A stretch of DNA of 30,054 bases. Origin: a virus. Location: positions 1 to 30,054 of IMG/VR virus record IMGVR_UViG_3300017989_000326. One strand, given 5' to 3'. Shown piece after piece: positions 4,943-16,034 of this stretch (within the stretch, counting starts at the first letter, position 1; each line of letters begins with the position of its first letter). A program made the position numbers and the translations under genes. The notes under the pieces were generated by a model. It made no database searches. It was not told the origin of the DNA and worked only from the letters and a program-made list of their open reading frames with translations.

Positions 4943-5593
4943 TCACCTCACTCTCACACTGCTCTCAGCATACGCCTCGATGCCCGGTATGTCCGTCTCT
5001 GACTTCATTGCCCGGACTATCTGCCCGATCTTCTTGGTATCGATCATCAGATACTTGCGCGGGATCTTGGCTTCATCGGTAATACGGAACTTCCATGTCT
5101 GCTGTGTGTGGACGTTCTCCGCCGTCGGCTTAGGTGCTGACGGTACAGCAACGACCGGAGCCGGATCTGCTGCAAGGATCTCTTCGGCCAGTTCCGTTTC
5201 ACCGTTCGCCTCGGCCAGCTCGGCCATTCGAAGTTGACGTTCTTCTTCGGCCTTGCGTGCTGCTGCCAAATTGGCCGCTTCCTCTTCACGGCGCTTCCGT
5301 TCCTGCTCCTGGTAGTATTCACCCATACGACCGCGGAGTGTCCTGTCCGCCTCGACAAGCGGAGCATCGGTCTCTCTCTTGCGTGCGACGGCTTCCTTGT
5401 GTGCCGCATGTGCTTTCTTGATAATCGGGTCGAATACGTTGCCGATCTCTTTACGCAAAGCCTTGATCTGCTTCAGTACCGTTCCGGCCTCGGCATACTG
5501 GTCGTCATTGGTGACCGCCAGTGCGGCCGCCTGAGTTGCGAAGTCCATAGCCTCTTTCGGTGCTGTGTCGAGTGTCATGATTGCTTCAGTCAT
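4943..5593 (-). CDS. Coiled-coil protein of the recombination operon
   Basis: The start is ATG 5593, preceded by CGGAGGAAACAAC; the open frame upstream to 5716 lies inside the next gene and has no ribosome binding site. The 216-residue product has a long charged coil (about 40-145, rich in E, K, R and A, with QEQERKRREEEA), then a linker with Ala/Pro, then a C-terminal domain (WKFRITDEAKIPRKYLMIDT...IPGIEAY). Proteins with this coil plus 'vP..Yl..D...I' tail often sit beside phage exonuclease and annealing-protein genes. Its biochemical role is unclear; I infer an accessory role in recombination. Its ATGACTGA overlap with the upstream exonuclease gene suggests coupled translation. Confidence 0.65.
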   Translation of the reverse strand: MTEAIMTLDTAPKEAMDFATQAAALAVTNDDQYAEAGTVLKQIKALRKEIGNVFDPIIKKAHAAHKEAVARKRETDAPLVEADRTLRGRMGEYYQEQERKRREEEAANLAAARKAEEERQLRMAELAEANGETELAEEILAADPAPVVAVPSAPKPTAENVHTQQTWKFRITDEAKIPRKYLMIDTKKIGQIVRAMKSETDIPGIEAYAESSVRVR

Positions 5594-6182
5594 TGTTGTT
5601 TCCTCCGATGTTGTGTTCCTGTTTCCATTGATACACGGTATAGGCCGAGCGGAACGCATTCCAGTCGGCCATGTCGTTTCTGTACCGTTCAACCTTGTAC
5701 TTTCCTTCACTGCCAAGATACACGGCTATCCGCTTGCATGCTCCAAGCACTCCCAGCCCTTCGGCATACGCTGCGAGCTGCAGCGCTGTTGCCGGGTGCG
5801 GCTGCCCGGTTTTGATGTCAACCAGGCAATCTGTTTCGTTGATCTTGCCGAACCGGTCAAGCAATCCGGCATAAGGTGGCATATCACAGCTCACCATATG
5901 CTCAATCAGCTTCGGCTGGAACTCGGACTCCTCGCGGTAGCTGATCCACGCGTCAACGTACGGGACGATCTCCGGATCAAGACCGGCATAGTCGAGATCG
6001 CCTTCGTCCCAGTACTGACAGGCCAGGTGTACGGCAGTTCCACGGGCTGCGGCATATTCAGCGCCCTGGTACATGCTGTAATCAATGAGCCCGGCGCCTT
6101 TGAGGATCTGCGTGACGCTGGGAACTACCTGGCCGGTGCTGTCCCGGTATGTGTGTGTTTCCGGCTCAAATGTCACTTGCAT
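5586..6182 (-). CDS. PD-(D/E)XK exonuclease (RecB/Cas4-type phage nuclease)
   Basis: The start is ATG 6182 with GGAGGG eight bases upstream; this removes 11 residues from the longest frame. In the 198-residue product the nuclease signature is clear: RGxxxH (47-52), GLLDR with Asp109, VDIKTG with Asp122 and Lys124, and QLAAY with Gln135. These are the metal-binding Asp, the catalytic D-x-K and the motif-III Gln of the PD-(D/E)XK superfamily. Such phage enzymes degrade one strand of DNA ends and work with an annealing protein during recombination. The gene lies directly downstream of the annealing-protein-like gene, overlapping it by 17 bases. The length is short but normal for this family. Confidence 0.85.
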   Translation of the reverse strand: MQVTFEPETHTYRDSTGQVVPSVTQILKGAGLIDYSMYQGAEYAAARGTAVHLACQYWDEGDLDYAGLDPEIVPYVDAWISYREESEFQPKLIEHMVSCDMPPYAGLLDRFGKINETDCLVDIKTGQPHPATALQLAAYAEGLGVLGACKRIAVYLGSEGKYKVERYRNDMADWNAFRSAYTVYQWKQEHNIGGNNND

Positions 6183-7047
6183 TGTTCGCACCCTCCAGCC
6201 ATGCCTTGATTTCATCGACTGCCGAGAATGGGATTTCTTCGCTGGATGTCACGCCGTATTGCTGTTCGACGAAATCCCGGTATTCCTGTTCAGACACGTT
6301 GTTCGCTTTGGCAACTGCCCAGAGCATACGCCGTTGTGCTTCGGTACATGCTCCAGGTTTGCTGGAACGCCGTTCCGGTTTTGCCGGTGCCTTTTTCTTT
6401 GCCGGTGCAGATCCGCCAAAGTCTTCACCGTTAGCAGCCATATCTTCAATGTCCTGCGTGAAGATGTCACTGGCGGCCGTTGCCTGTATGATCGCGTGTA
6501 CGTATGCCCGTTTCGTTGCCATCTTCTTTACGGTATTGTAATAGTCGGCTGGGTTATCGTGATCGACACGTTCACAGATTACCCACTCACCATCTTTTTT
6601 TGATGCCGTATAGTTCGGGCCACCAAGCAACAACTTATCCCGACTGTCCCAGTATTCCCTGGGAACCGGCCTGCCGGTGTTCTCACTGCGGTAGCGGTAC
6701 TTCGTTTCCATCGTCGAGCAGTTACCCACACCCATTCCGACGTATGTGCCGTCCGCATGGTACAGTTCGCAAATGACTTCATACTCCCGATGCTCATTAG
6801 GCAGGTCTTCGCGTTCGACCTGGTATCGTGGTTGCAGGCGAAACATAAGGCCGATTTTCTGCGCTCCTGGTTGCAACAGAGACGGCTTAGGGCATCCAGG
6901 TATAGTACCGAAATGTTCGTCATGCTTCATTACTGCCCGCATAAGGCGTTCGATCTGCTGGACGTGTTCCATTACGTCCTGTACTTCCATAGGCAGTGAT
7001 CCGCCGATGTGTACCGGTGTGAGTGCGGTTGTTTGTTCTTCTGACAT
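6166..7047 (-). CDS. Probable single-strand annealing / recombination protein
   Basis: The 293-residue product starts at ATG 7047 after CGGAGGAAAGACA. The core (about 20-205) contains conserved phage-type segments: GMGVGNCSTMETKYRYR and NTVKKMATKRAYVHAIIQAT followed by SDIFTQDIED. I know this core from many phage proteins placed next to exonuclease genes; they are usually left unnamed or compared with Rad52/Sak-type annealing proteins. A low-complexity A/K/P linker (213-230) leads to a C-terminal helical domain (about 234-287, 'TEAQRRMLWAVAKANNVSEQEY'-type) also seen at the end of other recombination proteins. The operon with the exonuclease supports DNA pairing as its job. No direct proof of function. 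Confidence 0.6.
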   Translation of the reverse strand: MSEEQTTALTPVHIGGSLPMEVQDVMEHVQQIERLMRAVMKHDEHFGTIPGCPKPSLLQPGAQKIGLMFRLQPRYQVEREDLPNEHREYEVICELYHADGTYVGMGVGNCSTMETKYRYRSENTGRPVPREYWDSRDKLLLGGPNYTASKKDGEWVICERVDHDNPADYYNTVKKMATKRAYVHAIIQATAASDIFTQDIEDMAANGEDFGGSAPAKKKAPAKPERRSSKPGACTEAQRRMLWAVAKANNVSEQEYRDFVEQQYGVTSSEEIPFSAVDEIKAWLEGANNASDI

Positions 7048-7072
7048 TGTCTTTCCTCCGATGTTGGTGGTT

Positions 7073-7501
7073 CTACCTAAGTGTTTCGATTAATGCTTGG
7101 CATTTTGCATCGCGCACTGATTGTCTCCATTCGTGCCTATCTTCATGCCACTTGAAAAAGCTCTTGCCTGTTTCGAGGCAATGTAAAGACTTAGAACCAA
7201 GAGGCTGGTATTTTTGAGGCCACTTAGAGCCTACGTATGTAGTTTCATCCTTGAGCTGTTCTGCCAGTTCCTTGTGAGACAAGTTCCAGCCGGAGCGCCA
7301 TTTTATCAGTGCCTCTCGAGCCTGTTTGACAACTTCTGATTCTACGAGAGGACAGAAGTCTTTGAGTTGTTGTTGTCGTGGTGGCTCGTTACTTCCAGCG
7401 TCAGCTTTATCCGCAGGCCAGTACTTTTCAAAGATGGCTTTTACATTTTCAAATGCTACCAGCGCCTGCCCGATCTGATGTTTTTCTTTGTTGCTGAACA
7501 T
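7073..7501 (-). CDS. Hypothetical protein of the leftward operon, 142 aa
   Basis: ATG 7501 follows a strong CGGAGGAAACA site. The product is basic and soluble with several Trp residues, and a helix-rich centre containing 'WRSGWNLSHKELAEQLKDE', which could be part of a helix-turn-helix but is not a clear match. It has no metal-binding motif or membrane segment. It sits between the ribbon-helix-helix gene and the annealing-protein-like gene, so it may be regulatory or assist recombination. I do not recognise the family. Confidence 0.6.
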   Translation of the reverse strand: MFSNKEKHQIGQALVAFENVKAIFEKYWPADKADAGSNEPPRQQQLKDFCPLVESEVVKQAREALIKWRSGWNLSHKELAEQLKDETTYVGSKWPQKYQPLGSKSLHCLETGKSFFKWHEDRHEWRQSVRDAKCQALIETLR

Positions 7502-9271: not shown

Positions 9272-9935
9272 TGGCTATATAAAACTTGCGCGGTCGCTCA
9301 GAACAAACAAGATGTGGACTTCTGAGCCGTTCACGAGGGGGCAGGCGTGGGTTGATATATTGTTGTCCTGCGCCTATTCAGACATGTTTGTTCGTATCCG
9401 TGGGGTGCGAGTGGACTTGAAGGCTGGACAGGCCGCATTGTCAGAACAGCACCTTGCTGATCGATGGAAGTGGTCGCGAGGCAAAGTCAGAAGATACTTG
9501 GAAGAATTGGAAAAAACGGAACAGCAGATAGTACAGCAAAAGACGAACGTAACTACCATAATATCAGTGGTTAACTGGAATACGTACCAAGCAGACGGTA
9601 CAGCAGATGATACAGCAAACAGTACAGCAAACGGACAGCAAACGGACAGCAAACGGACACAGAAAAGAATAATAAAGAATAATAAAGAAGGTAAAGAAAA
9701 AGATAAAAAAGTAACCAAAAAAAGTAAGGGCTTTCAAAAGCCAACACTTGAAGAAGTGCAGGGATATTGCATAGAACGAGAAAACAATGTAGACGCTGAA
9801 GGCTTCATTGCCCATTATAATGCTAACGGCTGGAAGGTTGGAAGAGGGAATCCAATGAAAGACTGGAAATCAGCAGTAATAACATGGGAAAAGAACAGTT
9901 TTAATAAACAGTCGCAAGGAGTACTAGACTGGTGA
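9264..9935 (+). CDS. Replication initiator-like protein (DnaD/replisome-organiser type)
   Basis: ATG 9264 is chosen because GGAAGG lies at good spacing; the frame is open back to 9120 but that extension has no ribosome binding site. The 223-residue product begins GYIKLARSLRTNKMWTSEPF and GQAWVDILLSCAYSD, then a winged-helix region with 'LADRWKWSRGKVRRYLEELE'. This is the start of many phage replication proteins. After a polar Q/T/D/N linker and a K-rich stretch, the C-terminal domain (about 160-215, PTLEEVQGYCIERENNVDAEGF...GWKVGRGNPMKDWKSAVITWE) is the DnaT/DnaD-like type. It probably binds the origin and recruits the host helicase. A GTG start of the next gene overlaps its stop. Confidence 0.75.
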   Translation: MSNGYIKLARSLRTNKMWTSEPFTRGQAWVDILLSCAYSDMFVRIRGVRVDLKAGQAALSEQHLADRWKWSRGKVRRYLEELEKTEQQIVQQKTNVTTIISVVNWNTYQADGTADDTANSTANGQQTDSKRTQKRIIKNNKEGKEKDKKVTKKSKGFQKPTLEEVQGYCIERENNVDAEGFIAHYNANGWKVGRGNPMKDWKSAVITWEKNSFNKQSQGVLDW

Positions 9936-10698: not shown

Positions 10699-11376
10699 AT
10701 GAAGCATGAAAATCTTAGGTTAGAGGTTGCCAAACTGATACACAAATATCGTGTTCAGGAAGGGTTGTCATTCCGCGACATCTCAGACGTTTTCACAGGC
10801 GAGGAAAACCAAATGGTCGGCATCGAACTGTGCAGACATGCAGAGCGAGTTCTTGGATTTGGAACAGACTGGATATTTGAACCCGAAGGAGCAGAAAAGA
10901 TGAACTTTGAAGAAGGCAAAATTTACAAAGTCAGACACTCTCGGAAAGGAATCTTTCATCTCTATGTTTTAAACCAAGATGATACGTGGCTTACTGGAAG
11001 AATTATAAAAGGACACGCAAAGGCCATGTTGGAATACAACGAAAAATATGTAGGGGATGAAATTACAGTAAGAAAATCATTCTTAACCAAGCCAATAGAG
11101 GTTAAAGAAGTCCAGCCGAAGGAAGGGTGCAGGATGCTGGAGCCGGATGAGACACCAAAGAAAGGTGACTGGTTTAGATTAAAAAAATACTCAAATAGTA
11201 AATGGTTTCTCAGCAACAGATGGGAAGATGATCCACCCCTTCAGAGTCCCGATTGCCACTACTGCCGCCCGATTGAGGTTGAGCAGGAAGAGGAAGAGCC
11301 GACCATGCTGGACGTACTGAAAAGTATTGACAGGAAGTTGGATGTGTTGATCGGAAAGGAGGCCGGGGATGAATGA
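10699..11376 (+). CDS. Multi-domain accessory protein of unknown function, 225 aa
   Basis: ATG 10699 follows GGGAGTGAAACA. The N-terminal part (1-65) is helical and could include a helix-turn-helix ('LSFRDISDVFTGEENQMVGIELC'). The middle (about 68-130: EEGKIYKVRHSRKGIFHLYV then TWLTGRIIKGHAKA) is a small beta-rich module common in short phage proteins. A second short module follows (EPDETPKKGDWFRL), and a Cys/His patch (SPDCHYCRP) and an acidic region precede the last helix. It looks assembled from parts of several small phage proteins. Its C-terminus (GKEAGDE) is encoded by the ribosome-binding junction shared with the next genes. Confidence 0.6.
   Translation: MKHENLRLEVAKLIHKYRVQEGLSFRDISDVFTGEENQMVGIELCRHAERVLGFGTDWIFEPEGAEKMNFEEGKIYKVRHSRKGIFHLYVLNQDDTWLTGRIIKGHAKAMLEYNEKYVGDEITVRKSFLTKPIEVKEVQPKEGCRMLEPDETPKKGDWFRLKKYSNSKWFLSNRWEDDPPLQSPDCHYCRPIEVEQEEEEPTMLDVLKSIDRKLDVLIGKEAGDE
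11354..11370 (+). repeat. Gene-junction repeat, copy 1 (ribosome binding site plus start)
   Basis: GAAAGGAGGCCGGGGAT here is identical, over 17 bases, to 12731-12747. It encodes the end of one protein (KEAGD) while supplying the ribosome binding site of the next gene. Near copies lie at 11825-11841 (one base changed in the GGAGGCCGGGG core) and about 12377-12392. Confidence 0.75.
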
Positions 11377-11611
11377 AGAACATAGAATCTGCAATAACTG
11401 CCACATCCGGGAGGGTGATTTAGTAAGGCAAGTTGTAATGCCTTCATTTAAGCCACATATTTCAGAGCCGTGGGTGTTTCGGTATTATCTATGTCGCTGG
11501 TGCCGCGGTGCATGGAATCGTTATAGGTTGCCAACGCAACAAAAAATAACGGTATTAAAATACAGACCAGATGCAGAACTTGTCTCAACAAAGGAAGGTG
11601 GTGAGGGATGA
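11369..11611 (+). CDS. Small zinc-ribbon protein, 80 aa
   Basis: ATG 11369 overlaps the stop of the previous gene and is preceded by AAAGGAGG. The 80-residue product has CNNC (residues 8-11) and CRWC (42-45), a four-cysteine zinc-ribbon layout, with a Trp/Tyr-rich stretch between. Proteins like this usually bind nucleic acid or act as small adaptors. It ends in STKEGGEG, part of the shared junction pattern. The precise role is unknown. Confidence 0.6.
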   Translation: MNEEHRICNNCHIREGDLVRQVVMPSFKPHISEPWVFRYYLCRWCRGAWNRYRLPTQQKITVLKYRPDAELVSTKEGGEG

Positions 11612-11850
11612 GCGACATTTGGGAAGATATTTACAGCACAGAAGAGGAAATGCGTCTGGCGGCTGAAGCATCAGGCGAAATGAGACACAAAACAACAGCC
11701 AGCGAACTGCTGGAAATCATAGTTCTCAATGCAGCGATCGGCCCAGATGCAAAAATGGATGGATTTACGGACTGTTATCATGTTCCGTTGGATGACATTG
11801 ACAGAGCCAAAGAATGGCTGAAAGCAAAGGAGGTCGGGGATGACGCTTGA
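11608..11850 (+). CDS. Small hypothetical protein, 80 aa
   Basis: The ATG at 11608 overlaps the previous stop (ATGA), with GGAAGGTGGTGAGGG just upstream. The product is acidic, with a helical N-terminus and a 'DCYHVPLDDIDRAKEWLKAKEV' end that resembles short phage proteins of unknown function. It has no metal or enzyme motif. Its C-terminus (AKEVGDDA) is encoded by the shared junction sequence. Confidence 0.55.
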   Translation: MSDIWEDIYSTEEEMRLAAEASGEMRHKTTASELLEIIVLNAAIGPDAKMDGFTDCYHVPLDDIDRAKEWLKAKEVGDDA

Positions 11851-12394
11851 AAAACTGAGGCACATCATAGATGAGAATGGGTTCGGTGATCGATTACAAT
11901 ACAATGACACTGTTGCCGACATGGCAATAGACTGCCTCGACTCTGCTATCAAGGAACGTGACAAACTCAAGGCGAAGGTGGACATGTATGAACAGGCACT
12001 CATGCAGTCAGCCCACGAACTAGTATCATGTCCATTTTGCGGTGAGTCGGAAGATATTTCAATTCTAGCCAGGCGTTATCACGGTGGGGTCGTGGAAATA
12101 CGTGGGGACAAATTTTGGCGTGTCGAATGCCTGCAGTGCGATTGTCGTACCGGCGACTTTTTTGACGCTGACTATGATGGCGACGGACGGTCGGCCGCTA
12201 TAGAGGCGTGGCATCGTAGACAACAGAACAGTAAAGAGCTTGAAATCTTGAACCAGGCATTTGAGGAATCGGACTATGACCTTGTGACGTGTGCCAAGTG
12301 CGGTCGCTGGGTGCTGGATCTGCCGGATGGCCTGTCCTACTGTAGGGAATGTGCAGAAAAGCTCGAAGAAGAGCAGGAAGGAGGCAGGGGATGA
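11840..12394 (+). CDS. Lar-like restriction-alleviation protein with two zinc ribbons
   Basis: ATG 11840 overlaps the end of the previous gene; AAAGGAGG lies just upstream. The 184-residue product has an N-terminal helical coil (about 1-60), then a Lar-type zinc ribbon: CPFCG (Cys64, Cys67), WRVECLQC (Cys97, Cys100), and AAIEAWHRRQ (about 119-128), which corresponds to the family's 'A-x-x-x-W-N-x-R' ending. A second ribbon follows (CAKC 151-154 and CREC 168-171). Lar proteins of prophages such as Rac relieve host type I restriction by an indirect effect. A second ribbon in one chain is not the usual small Lar. The function is inferred from the motif. Confidence 0.55.
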   Translation: MTLEKLRHIIDENGFGDRLQYNDTVADMAIDCLDSAIKERDKLKAKVDMYEQALMQSAHELVSCPFCGESEDISILARRYHGGVVEIRGDKFWRVECLQCDCRTGDFFDADYDGDGRSAAIEAWHRRQQNSKELEILNQAFEESDYDLVTCAKCGRWVLDLPDGLSYCRECAEKLEEEQEGGRG

Positions 12395-12753
12395 ATGCAC
12401 CATTACCAAGCATTGACCTAATAGTTTGGGCTGCTTTATTTAAGGCAATGAACGACCGTGAGCCAACTGTTTCTGAATTGCCTCCAGAGTTAGCAATTTG
12501 TCTCGGCAAAAAAGTATTTCAGTATGTAGACCACATGCGTGAACATCATTTTTGTAACACACGGATTGTAACTGAGCGACACGCTTACGTAGGATGTCTT
12601 TACGATCATGGCATAAGCAGAGACGCATTCGATGGTGTGGACAAGGCAATTCTTAAAGCATCACCAGACGAAGCGCCTTATTGGGTCAAACAGGAAGCGC
12701 GGAATAGATTATGTCATGCACAGGGAGCGAGAAAGGAGGCCGGGGATAAATGA
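12391..12753 (+). CDS. Hypothetical accessory protein, 120 aa
   Basis: ATG 12391 follows GAAGGAGGCAGGGG and overlaps the stop of the Lar-like gene; the upstream in-frame ATG 12349 lies inside that gene. The product has helical segments, two cysteines and several histidines, but no recognisable domain. It ends in ARKEAGDK, encoded by an exact copy of the junction repeat. Function unknown. Confidence 0.55.
   Translation: MNAPLPSIDLIVWAALFKAMNDREPTVSELPPELAICLGKKVFQYVDHMREHHFCNTRIVTERHAYVGCLYDHGISRDAFDGVDKAILKASPDEAPYWVKQEARNRLCHAQGARKEAGDK
12731..12747 (+). repeat. Gene-junction repeat, copy 2
   Basis: Exact second copy of the 17-base junction found at 11354-11370. It gives the KEAGD ending of the 120-residue protein and the ribosome binding site of the VRR-NUC gene. 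Confidence 0.75.
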
Positions 12754-13208
12754 CCAGCGGCATCACCATATCAGACCTGCCTGAGAAATACCGGCAGCAG
12801 GCATTGCAGCAGCTCGGATTAGACCTCCCGGCACCGGAACCGGGCAAGCCGAAAAAGCGTGTACCGGAATCGAAGCTCCAGGCCGATGCCGAAAAGTATC
12901 TCGAGTTCCGCGGATACGACAGGCTTACACAAAAGAAGATCCTCGGCGGTGCTCCGGAAAAAGGATGGTTCGCACACTGGCCGATAGCCAAAGGCAACCC
13001 GATAATGCTGGATCTGCTGATACTATCGAATGAGCCGCCGTACAGGTTTATGATGATCGAATTGAAGACCGACACCGGCCGCACTAAAAAGCACCAGGCG
13101 GCTTTGATCGTACAGTGCAAGTCCGCTATACTATGCCGTAGCGTCGATGAAGTCAGGCGGGCGCTGGATGCATGGGAAAGCAACACAACGGAGGAAAGAC
13201 CGAAATGA
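12750..13208 (+). CDS. VRR-NUC domain nuclease
   Basis: ATG 12750 overlaps the previous stop (ATGA). The 152-residue product carries the VRR-NUC fold signature: Gly82-Asn-Pro with Asp88 in GNPIMLDLL, Glu104 and Lys106 in MMIELKTDTG, and Gln116 in KKHQAALI. These are the metal-binding and catalytic residues of this PD-(D/E)XK relative. Phage proteins of this type are thought to cut branched DNA such as Holliday junctions during replication or packaging. The first 70 residues are a variable helical and basic lead. The length is typical for the phage single-domain form. Confidence 0.85.
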   Translation: MTSGITISDLPEKYRQQALQQLGLDLPAPEPGKPKKRVPESKLQADAEKYLEFRGYDRLTQKKILGGAPEKGWFAHWPIAKGNPIMLDLLILSNEPPYRFMMIELKTDTGRTKKHQAALIVQCKSAILCRSVDEVRRALDAWESNTTEERPK

Positions 13209-13461: not shown

Positions 13462-15231
13462 ATGATAAAATTGGCAAAACTGAACCCACGCGAGAACAAC
13501 CCAAGGACAATATCCGAAGAGGCAATGCAGAAGCTCTGCGACTCGATCAAGCGCGATCCGGACTTCATGAAGCTCAGGCCGATAGTCTACGACCCGGACA
13601 ACGGAAACGAGATCCTCGGCGGTAACATGCGATACCGGGCATGCGTATTGCTCGGCATGGAAGAGATCCCGAACGACTGGACGAAATCAGCATCGGGGCT
13701 TACCGAAGAACAGAAGCGCCGGTTTGTGATCGTGGACAATGCACCGTCAGGGATGGCCGGGCGCTGGGACTGGGATCTGCTCGCGAATGAGTTCGATGTT
13801 GAGGAACTGACTGACTGGGGATTCTCTGAGGCGGAGTTGGGGATGATGGAGCCGGAAGAGCCTGCAATCGGAAACAAATCTGCTCCAGATGCTAAAATGA
13901 ATCAGAAAAAAGAACTTGCCGAAAAATGGAAAACAGCCATAGGGCAACAGTGGCAACTCGGCGATCATATATTGATCTGCGCTGATTCTGCCGATGTGAT
14001 GGGTTCAGGAGATCAATGCAAAACCCTGTTTTTTGATCCTGAATGGGATGCAATTCCAGAAATTCCAAAATACGAGAATACACTTGCATTTACAGACGGA
14101 CAGCATTTTTCTGAAATAAACAGACAATTCGGAGCGCCGACATGGTGTTTTACCTGGGATTGTGGCGCATGCTGGTATGTGCCTAATCAACCATTGAGGC
14201 GCGCAAAATACTGCATGTGGTTCGGAAATCTGGCTGACTATGAGTATAACGGAAGCCATTACGGCGAGCCTGATGCTCCGCATGTAGTTTCAAACTCACG
14301 CGGCAAGTATATGTATGAACCAGATCCACGCGGAAAGCATCTTGCAGATGTCTATTCGGAAAGCCTGGTAGCACTGCACAAAGACGGCTTGCACTCGCAC
14401 GAAAAGCCTGTCGACTGGGTGAGAATGCTTATTGCAAACTGTACGACCGGGGATGTGTTCGATCCGTTCGCAGGTGCCGGAACATGTCTGATTGCCTGTC
14501 AGCAGTTGGGGCGAAAGTGTGTTTCAGTGGAAATTGACCGTGAGAATGTTGCTGTGATTCTCGAAAGATGGCAGGAGATGACTGGCCAGGAACCAAAATG
14601 CACGGACAACAAGATCAAAAAGATCATAAGTGTCAGGGATAGCATTAAGACTGAAACAGAGTTGAAAGAACAAAGCAGTGATACTGCATTTCGCAAAATG
14701 GCAATGAGATACCAGGCGTTTGAAATGTGCGCGATCAGCTCGGCAGAAGAATTGATAGAAAAAGAGCTGAAGCAGAATACTCAAATAAGGGCTATCACTA
14801 AAAAATGGTTCAACGCGTTGTCAGTAATCAAGGCTCTTGGCAAAAAGTTCGAACTGACAGAGGTTTTTATCTGTATTTATCGAATGAACCAGGCATCGGC
14901 TGCAGCGTTATTGGAGTTTGCGGAAGCATCAAAAACGGAAATCACCATAATACTGAATCGCTGGTTCAGAACGCCAAAAAACTATCAGAAATGGTGCAGG
15001 CTGATGGTTGAATCAGCTAAAAATATCAAAAACCTCAAAGTCGGATTTGCACCGACTCATGCCAAGATTGCGATTATGAAGACGAAATGTGGAAAGCATA
15101 TTGTTTTTGAGGGATCGGGCAATATGGCAGACAATGACCGCATTGAACAATACCTGCTGGAAAACAATAAACAGACATACGAGTTTCATAAAAAATGGAT
15201 TACGGAGGAATTTGAGGAGAACGCAGAATGA
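13462..15231 (+). CDS. ParB-like / DNA methyltransferase / PLD-like triple fusion
   Basis: AAAGGAAAGACAGTA precedes ATG 13462. Residues 1-100 form a ParB/Srx-like domain (NPRENNPR; ILGGNMRYRA at 51-60). Residues about 160-375 are an amino-methyltransferase: motif IV at 189-196 (LFFDPEWD), HEKP at 313-316 and motif I DPFAGAGT at 334-341, the order seen in phage ParB-methyltransferases. Residues about 400-589 resemble phospholipase-D-like nucleases: KWFNALSVIKALG, then H533-x-K535 and G551-S-G-N554, with RIEQYLLEN and EFHKKWI. Motif IV has DPEW where DPPY/W is usual, and the PLD acidic residue is replaced (Lys540). The gene overlaps the radical SAM gene (ATGA). Methylation is inferred; the PLD part could cut DNA or only bind it. 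Confidence 0.75.
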   Translation: MIKLAKLNPRENNPRTISEEAMQKLCDSIKRDPDFMKLRPIVYDPDNGNEILGGNMRYRACVLLGMEEIPNDWTKSASGLTEEQKRRFVIVDNAPSGMAGRWDWDLLANEFDVEELTDWGFSEAELGMMEPEEPAIGNKSAPDAKMNQKKELAEKWKTAIGQQWQLGDHILICADSADVMGSGDQCKTLFFDPEWDAIPEIPKYENTLAFTDGQHFSEINRQFGAPTWCFTWDCGACWYVPNQPLRRAKYCMWFGNLADYEYNGSHYGEPDAPHVVSNSRGKYMYEPDPRGKHLADVYSESLVALHKDGLHSHEKPVDWVRMLIANCTTGDVFDPFAGAGTCLIACQQLGRKCVSVEIDRENVAVILERWQEMTGQEPKCTDNKIKKIISVRDSIKTETELKEQSSDTAFRKMAMRYQAFEMCAISSAEELIEKELKQNTQIRAITKKWFNALSVIKALGKKFELTEVFICIYRMNQASAAALLEFAEASKTEITIILNRWFRTPKNYQKWCRLMVESAKNIKNLKVGFAPTHAKIAIMKTKCGKHIVFEGSGNMADNDRIEQYLLENNKQTYEFHKKWITEEFEENAE

Positions 15232-16034
15232 GTTTGATTTATACACCGCGAGGTAAGGCACGGGAGTATAGTCCGCTGGCGCTGAACATCTATTCGGGAG
15301 GCTGTGACCACGCCTGTAAGTATTGCTATTGTCGATTATTCCAGCAAGGATGGTGCGATACGCCGCGCCGCCGCGACCTCTCAAAACTGGCTAAGGAAGC
15401 AGAACAGGCCGACGAACAGATCTTGTTGTGTTTTATCAGCGACCCATACAATCGGCATGATGTCGAATGGAAGGACACGCGCAAAGCATTGCAGATTTTG
15501 AGCTCTGCAAAATGTTCCGTGGCAATACTCACAAAGGGCGGCATGCGATGCCTGCGTGATATTGACATATTTCGAAGCTGGCCTGATAATCGGTTAAAGG
15601 TTGGCGCAACTCTCACAAAGTCGGATGAAATCGAGCCGGGGGCTGCTACGCACTCCGAGCGAATCGCAGCACTAAGAGAATTGCATGCTGCCGGTATTAA
15701 AACCTGGGCAAGCATTGAGCCGGTGATTGATCCAACGCGGTCACTGCAGGCAATAGAAGAGGCAATGCCGTTTGTGGATGAATTTAAGGTTGGAACATTG
15801 AACCATGAAAAAACAGAAACAGATTGGAATGCTTTTGCAGTCGATGCCGTAACAATGATACGAAATGCAGGAAAGATGCTATATGTAAAGCGAGATCTCA
15901 GAAAGTATTTGCCGGATGGATATTTAACTGCAGAGGAAGGCAATCAGAACTATCTGACAATTCAGGATAGAGAACATAGGCAGTTGTGTTTTGGTGGTTT
16001 TCTGCCTCACGCACGCCTGCGCGATATGGTATAA
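15228..16034 (+). CDS. Spore-photoproduct-lyase-like radical SAM protein
   Basis: ATG 15228 overlaps the stop of the fusion gene. The 268-residue product has a canonical radical SAM cluster motif, C26-x3-C30-x2-C33 (GGCDHACKYCYC), after IYTPRGKAREYSPLALNIY, and further barrel segments ILLCFISDPYN, CSVAILTKGGMR, LKVGATLTKSDE and TWASIEPVIDP. The lead and the 'A-L-N-x-Y-x-G-C' form match the SPL-like subgroup (SplB), enzymes that repair a thymine dimer by a 5'-deoxyadenosyl radical, and their phage relatives. The substrate here is unknown; DNA repair and base modification are both possible. Direct coupling to the ParB-methyltransferase gene favours a DNA-linked role. Confidence 0.75.
   Translation: MSLIYTPRGKAREYSPLALNIYSGGCDHACKYCYCRLFQQGWCDTPRRRDLSKLAKEAEQADEQILLCFISDPYNRHDVEWKDTRKALQILSSAKCSVAILTKGGMRCLRDIDIFRSWPDNRLKVGATLTKSDEIEPGAATHSERIAALRELHAAGIKTWASIEPVIDPTRSLQAIEEAMPFVDEFKVGTLNHEKTETDWNAFAVDAVTMIRNAGKMLYVKRDLRKYLPDGYLTAEEGNQNYLTIQDREHRQLCFGGFLPHARLRDMV

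Follow-up and report, generated by a model that had tools for sequence, protein, structure and literature searches.

A repeated ribosome-binding block at the junctions of unrelated phage genes and its possible role as a cassette seam

Introduction

Why would neighbouring genes that encode unrelated proteins be joined by nearly the same ribosome-binding sequence? The question is raised by a run of small overlapping genes in a 30-kb fragment of an uncultured tailed phage, recognized by a Mu-type portal, a Mu F-like protein and capsid protein E. The whole fragment of 30,054 bases is referred to here as the window. A first-pass annotation proposed that five consecutive genes are joined by the same block, that this block gives their products similar C-terminal tails, and that the locus is a cassette slot in which small genes can be swapped without breaking translation.

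The gene cluster

Six overlapping genes span positions 10699-13208, flanked by a DnaD-like replication region on one side and by a ParB-methyltransferase gene on the other. The five genes named in the annotation are real open reading frames, and so is the next one at 12750.

10699-11376, + strand: gene, 225 aa, no assigned function; no family and no phage match; its own start has no block
11369-11611, + strand: gene, 80 aa, no assigned function, CxxC pairs (family-library searches)
11608-11850, + strand: gene, 80 aa, no assigned function (family-library searches)
11840-12394, + strand: Lar-like restriction alleviation family, zinc-finger-like, 184 aa (Pfam PF14354, E 1.3e-7, above the cut-off; phrog_599, E 4e-12)
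12391-12753, + strand: gene, 120 aa, no assigned function (family-library searches)
12750-13208, + strand: VRR-NUC-like nuclease (weak match), 152 aa (Pfam, E 0.023, below the cut-off; phrog_93 endonuclease, E 1.9e-5)

The open reading frames overlap by 4-11 bases, and the junctions are coupled in the manner of the lambda nin region, with stop and start overlapping and the Shine-Dalgarno sequence lying within the upstream gene. Apart from the Lar-like and the weak VRR-NUC-like proteins, the products have no relative in the libraries searched. The annotation had called the genes unrelated, and this agrees with the comparison of the six proteins, which gave no convincing mutual similarity (best E 0.03 over 19 residues). 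Nearby, the DnaD-like gene contains three tandem 11-base units (ACAGCAAACGG) at 9624-9659, and a radical SAM protein is encoded at 15228-16034, immediately after the ParB-methyltransferase gene.

The repeated block

Blocks of the AAAGGAGGYCGGGGATGA type lie at 11355, 11826, 12377 and 12732 and occupy four of the five cluster junctions within 1.4 kb.

11354-11376, + strand: copy 1 of the block (GAAAGGAGGCCGGGGATGAATGA), joining the end of gene 10699 to the start of gene 11369; motif search
11590-11611, + strand: degenerate fifth junction (AAAGGAAGGTGGTGAGGGATGA), 4 bases longer; missed by the motif search
11826-11843, + strand: copy 2 of the block (AAAGGAGGTCGGGGATGA), joining the end of gene 11608 to the start of gene 11840; 1 mismatch
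12377-12397, + strand: copy 3 of the block (GAAGGAGGCAGGGGATGAATG), joining the end of gene 11840 to the start of gene 12391; frame unlike the other copies
12731-12753, + strand: copy 4 of the block (GAAAGGAGGCCGGGGATAAATGA), at the end of gene 12391; matches copy 1 at 22 of 23 bases

A search of the 30,054 bases with AAAGGAGGCCGGGGATG, allowing up to three mismatches, returned exactly four copies, every one at these junctions; the chance expectation is 0.10, and four copies were reached in no shuffle. The 17-base identity of 11354-11370 and 12731-12747 reported earlier was confirmed, and the match in fact extends to 22 of 23 bases (11354-11376 and 12731-12753), the best of any two copies. In the copy at 12732, ATA stands in place of the ATG of the other copies, and the start of the downstream gene is shifted by 4 bases, to 12750. 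The proposed run of five joined genes has to be trimmed: the block is present at four junctions, the junction at 11608 is only loosely similar, and no block precedes the first gene, 10699. The resemblance of the copies is confined to positions -14 to about +6 of the start; their flanks are unrelated, with identity at background.

AAAGGAGG is the complement of the anti-Shine-Dalgarno end of 16S rRNA and pairs with the 16S 3' end. Because of this complementarity and its position six bases before the ATG, it is a strong ribosome-binding site (RBS), and the block consists of this strong Shine-Dalgarno site and a rare CCGGGG spacer. At AGGAGG-N6-ATG sites of other viral loci a spacer ending in GGGG was found in 1 of 256, and in none of the 76 that were GC-matched. 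Since such spacers are rare behind AGGAGG, the Shine-Dalgarno constraint does not explain the G-rich spacers of the block. With background frequencies, the probability that three further spacers fall within one mismatch of CCGGGG is about 4e-9, in a test chosen after the data had been seen.

The block is also not the general RBS or start signal of this phage, a possibility that was rejected because no further copy with up to two mismatches exists in about 38 kb, including 8 kb beyond the window. The motif is thus far from being a feature of most gene starts, which would have counted against a cassette slot. A second repeated start context is present in the phage: atcggaggaaacaATG-type sites lie before leftward genes at 7038-7066 and 5584-5613 (minus strand), and also at 7501, and two of these sites agree by about 87% over 30 bases.

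Searches for relatives and for the junction elsewhere

INPHARED, IMG/VR and the searches with single genes gave no further contig that covers the cluster. INPHARED gave no match to the cluster by blastn and none for four cluster proteins by tblastn, and IMG/VR searched with genes 12750 and 10699 gave no usable match. The methylase query returned only one locus (L012), with its tail. The terminase query returned a contig of the same phage (L021, 99.99% identity from 15191 on), which contributes the further 8.1 kb, and a second contig (L022) that is 80-91% identical over 16.0-20.2 kb only. RecT-like and DnaD-like queries led to distant phages that lack the cluster genes.

The motif was also searched for elsewhere. 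Apart from one phage, L007, no match in IMG/VR had a second copy of the block at a gene junction, an outcome close to the chance level (an estimate). The L007 phage has no detectable similarity to the window. It carries GGAGGCCGGGGATGA, the same 15-mer, twice, with the same gene head after each copy, and its 80-bp duplication starts at the RBS, the sequences upstream of the two copies being different. Here, in a genome other than that of the window, the seam forms the edge of a duplication. In the same record (33140-35014, fetched also as L026:14140-16015) there are duplicated gene heads (MNQIQLDYKTMLKDHKIEIDRLE and MVRYYKGEERAVLFDDHLAALAE) joined to different remainders.

Local sharing of blocks and spacers in other phages

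About 185-200 other viral loci were surveyed, with gene starts called by a simple script and left uncurated. At AAAGGAGG-N6-ATG sites in viral contigs a second copy, within two mismatches and in the same locus, was present in 12 of 125; three of these 12 sites had two further copies, and none of the 125 had three, as in this window, a comparison that is approximate because these loci and the window are of unequal length. At least three near-identical blocks before unrelated genes were found on about 4-6% of strands: 7 of 115 in a set picked for strong Shine-Dalgarno sites, which raises its rate, and 5 of 113 in a set picked by a RecT-like gene. The blocks of the window are an extreme case of a recurring phage pattern and are not unique.

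Similarity of the whole block (17 bases, up to three mismatches) falls with distance, from 2.1% of same-strand pairs less than 1.5 kb apart to 0.78% at 1.5-5 kb and 0.48% beyond; between GC-matched phages it is 0.34%. Similar proteins were found in none of 78 local pairs that share blocks. With the Shine-Dalgarno core and spacer length held equal, spacers matched within one base in 10.8% of near pairs (less than 1.5 kb, same strand; 93 pairs), 2.0% of those farther apart (204 pairs) and 1.1% of pairs between phages (8280 pairs), and thus spacer sharing by neighbouring unrelated phage genes is about nine times that between different phages. Because the core and the spacer length were equal in this test, Shine-Dalgarno strength alone does not explain the local sharing. 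Shared descent or operon-specific selection could be the cause.

Repeated start blocks were also noted in single loci. At L221:4100-4400 near-identical AAGGAGGCGATCTGATGA seams join three consecutive starts; with KEKEAI and KEKEAS as tails, this locus is a cleaner case of the pattern than the window itself. L045:1900-2320 has two RBS copies together with about 20 near-identical upstream bases ahead of unrelated genes, and L103:947-2121 (+ strand) has a series of starts with TAAGGAGATGGATCATG-type blocks in common, two copies being identical.

Homology joints at ribosome-binding sites

Ends of homology between phages fall within -20 to +3 of a Shine-Dalgarno start in 16.3% of 332 collapsed ends, as against 2.9% for random placements (maximum 5.1% in 200), an excess of about 5.6 times that may be inflated, since unrelated starts share AGGAGG and ATG and blastn ends may be drawn onto the RBS, and since many ends come from related pairs. 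In the adjoining zones the ends are at background. Six HSPs, representing four independent cases, run from one RBS zone to another, where 0.6 are expected and at most 4 were reached in 300 placements.

Three RBS-to-RBS pairs were inspected. L060 and L221 have 153 bp in common (91.5%), comprising a 41-aa gene from its own RBS to the next start; upstream the sequence differs, and the downstream gene has a different N-terminus. The 41-aa gene has the same kind of K-E-A tail. L159 and L171 have 163 bp in common (95.7%), with different DNA on both sides, these junctions being read as sequence only. In the third pair, L231/L232, an RBS is missing from one left flank, and so the case is less clean. 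Across the fetched loci, in which the L007 and L026 rows are the same record, no clean case of gene gain or loss between two RBS copies was found.

Explanations for the repeated block

The cassette slot is the reading that we favour, with confidence about evenly balanced, by analogy with other phages and published cases (PMC3029335). In this reading the four blocks are strong ribosome-binding seams with translational coupling, in which AAAGGAGG pairs with the 16S 3' end, the spacer is six bases and the start codon overlaps the upstream stop. CCGGGG would be common to the seams through common origin: small operon genes may have been added, duplicated or replaced as units with the RBS at their edge, each join reproducing the same seam, and their coding sequences may be different from the outset or have diverged beyond recognition. 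The first-pass proposal gains from the RBS-to-RBS stretches and the joints at the RBS in other phages, and is weakened in that the string also arises independently as a plain RBS. No exchange is seen at this locus, for which the searches gave no further contig. Also set against a common origin are the flanks, which are at background outside the block, so that duplication left no trace beyond it; such flanks would equally fit selection acting on the block by itself. A homology of just 17-23 bp is expected to recombine inefficiently unless a permissive recombinase is available. It is plausible that the seams still promote exchange through short homology, and small genes may be gained or replaced as cassettes through them.

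A broader form of the cassette reading, which we put forward tentatively as possible and somewhat unlikely, is that single-gene cassettes generally land at RBS seams in tight phage operons, and that the cluster is an array produced by repeated use of one seam. If exchange units run from RBS to RBS, neighbouring unrelated genes would inherit the same spacer, and similarity would decay with distance.

The block and its spacer could instead be a regulatory motif that is kept by selection, is read by a phage or host factor or by the host ribosome, and coordinates translation of the operon. Background flanks are what such a motif would leave, the conserved CCGGGG reaches beyond the 16S-pairing part, as has been argued for the start-associated sequences (SAS) of mycobacteriophages, and the copies are confined, SAS-like, to one operon of non-structural genes. 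However, that operon holds only four copies, their spacers differ at positions -6 and -5, and copy 4 has a displaced start codon. Folding of the five junctions revealed nothing unusual (z from -1.2 to +0.5), and RNA structure was rejected as an explanation. Phages also share spacers locally with a different spacer in each, which a single recognized motif would not predict. This regulatory explanation is judged unlikely.

Could strong ribosome-binding sites have evolved independently at the four junctions, the spacer match being accidental? Cellular genomes contain 7 matches to the 21-base pattern, where about 4 are expected (an estimate), and because these are mostly at ordinary gene starts, the block string also arises independently as a plain strong RBS; the 12 of 125 viral sites that have another copy point the same way. 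The absence of three further copies at any of the 125 sites, the rarity of the G-rich spacer and the use of different, mostly A-rich spacers elsewhere in this phage (such as cggaggaaacaATG at a minus-strand start) speak against convergence, which we regard as distinctly improbable.

The tails of the upstream products are GKEAGDE (10699), TKEGGEG (11369), AKEVGDDA (11608), QEGGRG (11840) and RKEAGDK (12391), as the annotation quoted them. They are not one peptide signal: at 12377 the upstream gene reads the block in a frame that yields QEGGRG, and not in the K-E-A/V-G-D frame. Because upstream genes read the block in two frames, it is conserved as nucleic acid and not as a protein tail, and because it also extends past the stop codon, the similar tails are a by-product of encoding the next RBS. 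That the conserved thing is instead a C-terminal K-E-A-G-D peptide, such as a degradation or targeting tag, is scarcely credible despite the resemblance of the translated tails; it was rejected on the frame difference at 12377, and the KEKEAS and KEKEAI tails of L221 likewise arise simply from AAGGAGGC in that frame.

The importance of this locus alone is modest, and the cluster is an unusually strong instance of something fairly frequent in phages. The finding directs attention to the RBS itself as the place to look, and the survey provides a measurable signature, local spacer sharing together with RBS-to-RBS shared stretches, that could be applied to all phage genomes.

Comparison with known systems

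In T4-type phages, mobile regulatory cassettes (Arbiol et al. 2010) are said to be repeated regulatory pieces between genes that were proposed to mediate shuffling. They reportedly carry a promoter and a stem-loop, whereas the block of the window is only an RBS.

The lambda ninR region, described as a 'chain of interlinked genes' (Kroger and Hobom 1982, as cited in PMC8022706), likewise packs small accessory genes closely together, with overlapping ATGA stop/start, between the replication genes and the late region. However, as a positive control for shared blocks it was negative: no two of its 11 P-to-Q starts have a 17-base block in common within 4 mismatches.

In Island3, gp67 and gp68, a gene and its upstream neighbour, have a common 3' end of about 60 bp, which was explained by gene gain or loss via recombination between repeats; its relative Brujita, with one copy, shows the event (PMC3029335). 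The cluster resembles this type of short, recombinogenic boundary sequence in that adjacent genes without mutual similarity end in almost the same sequence, but with four copies of 17-23 bp and without a relative such as Brujita.

The SAS of cluster K mycobacteriophages, GGGATAGGAGCCC, is present in 11-19 copies per genome, is conserved across the cluster, often has an extended inverted repeat and has been proposed to have a regulatory role (PMC3203893; PMC12699233). In a control with TM4, seven SAS sites were located, each 16-20 bases ahead of a start. The window block, AAAGGAGGYCGGGGATGA, does not match GGGATAGGAGCCC, has four copies in one operon and is carried by no known relative. Like the SAS, it is a short repeat with an AGGAG core and conserved non-pairing bases just upstream of starts, and it adjoins unrelated non-structural genes in one orientation. 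With Island3 gp67/gp68 and the cluster K start-associated sequences as precedents, the cassette-slot mechanism is plausible.
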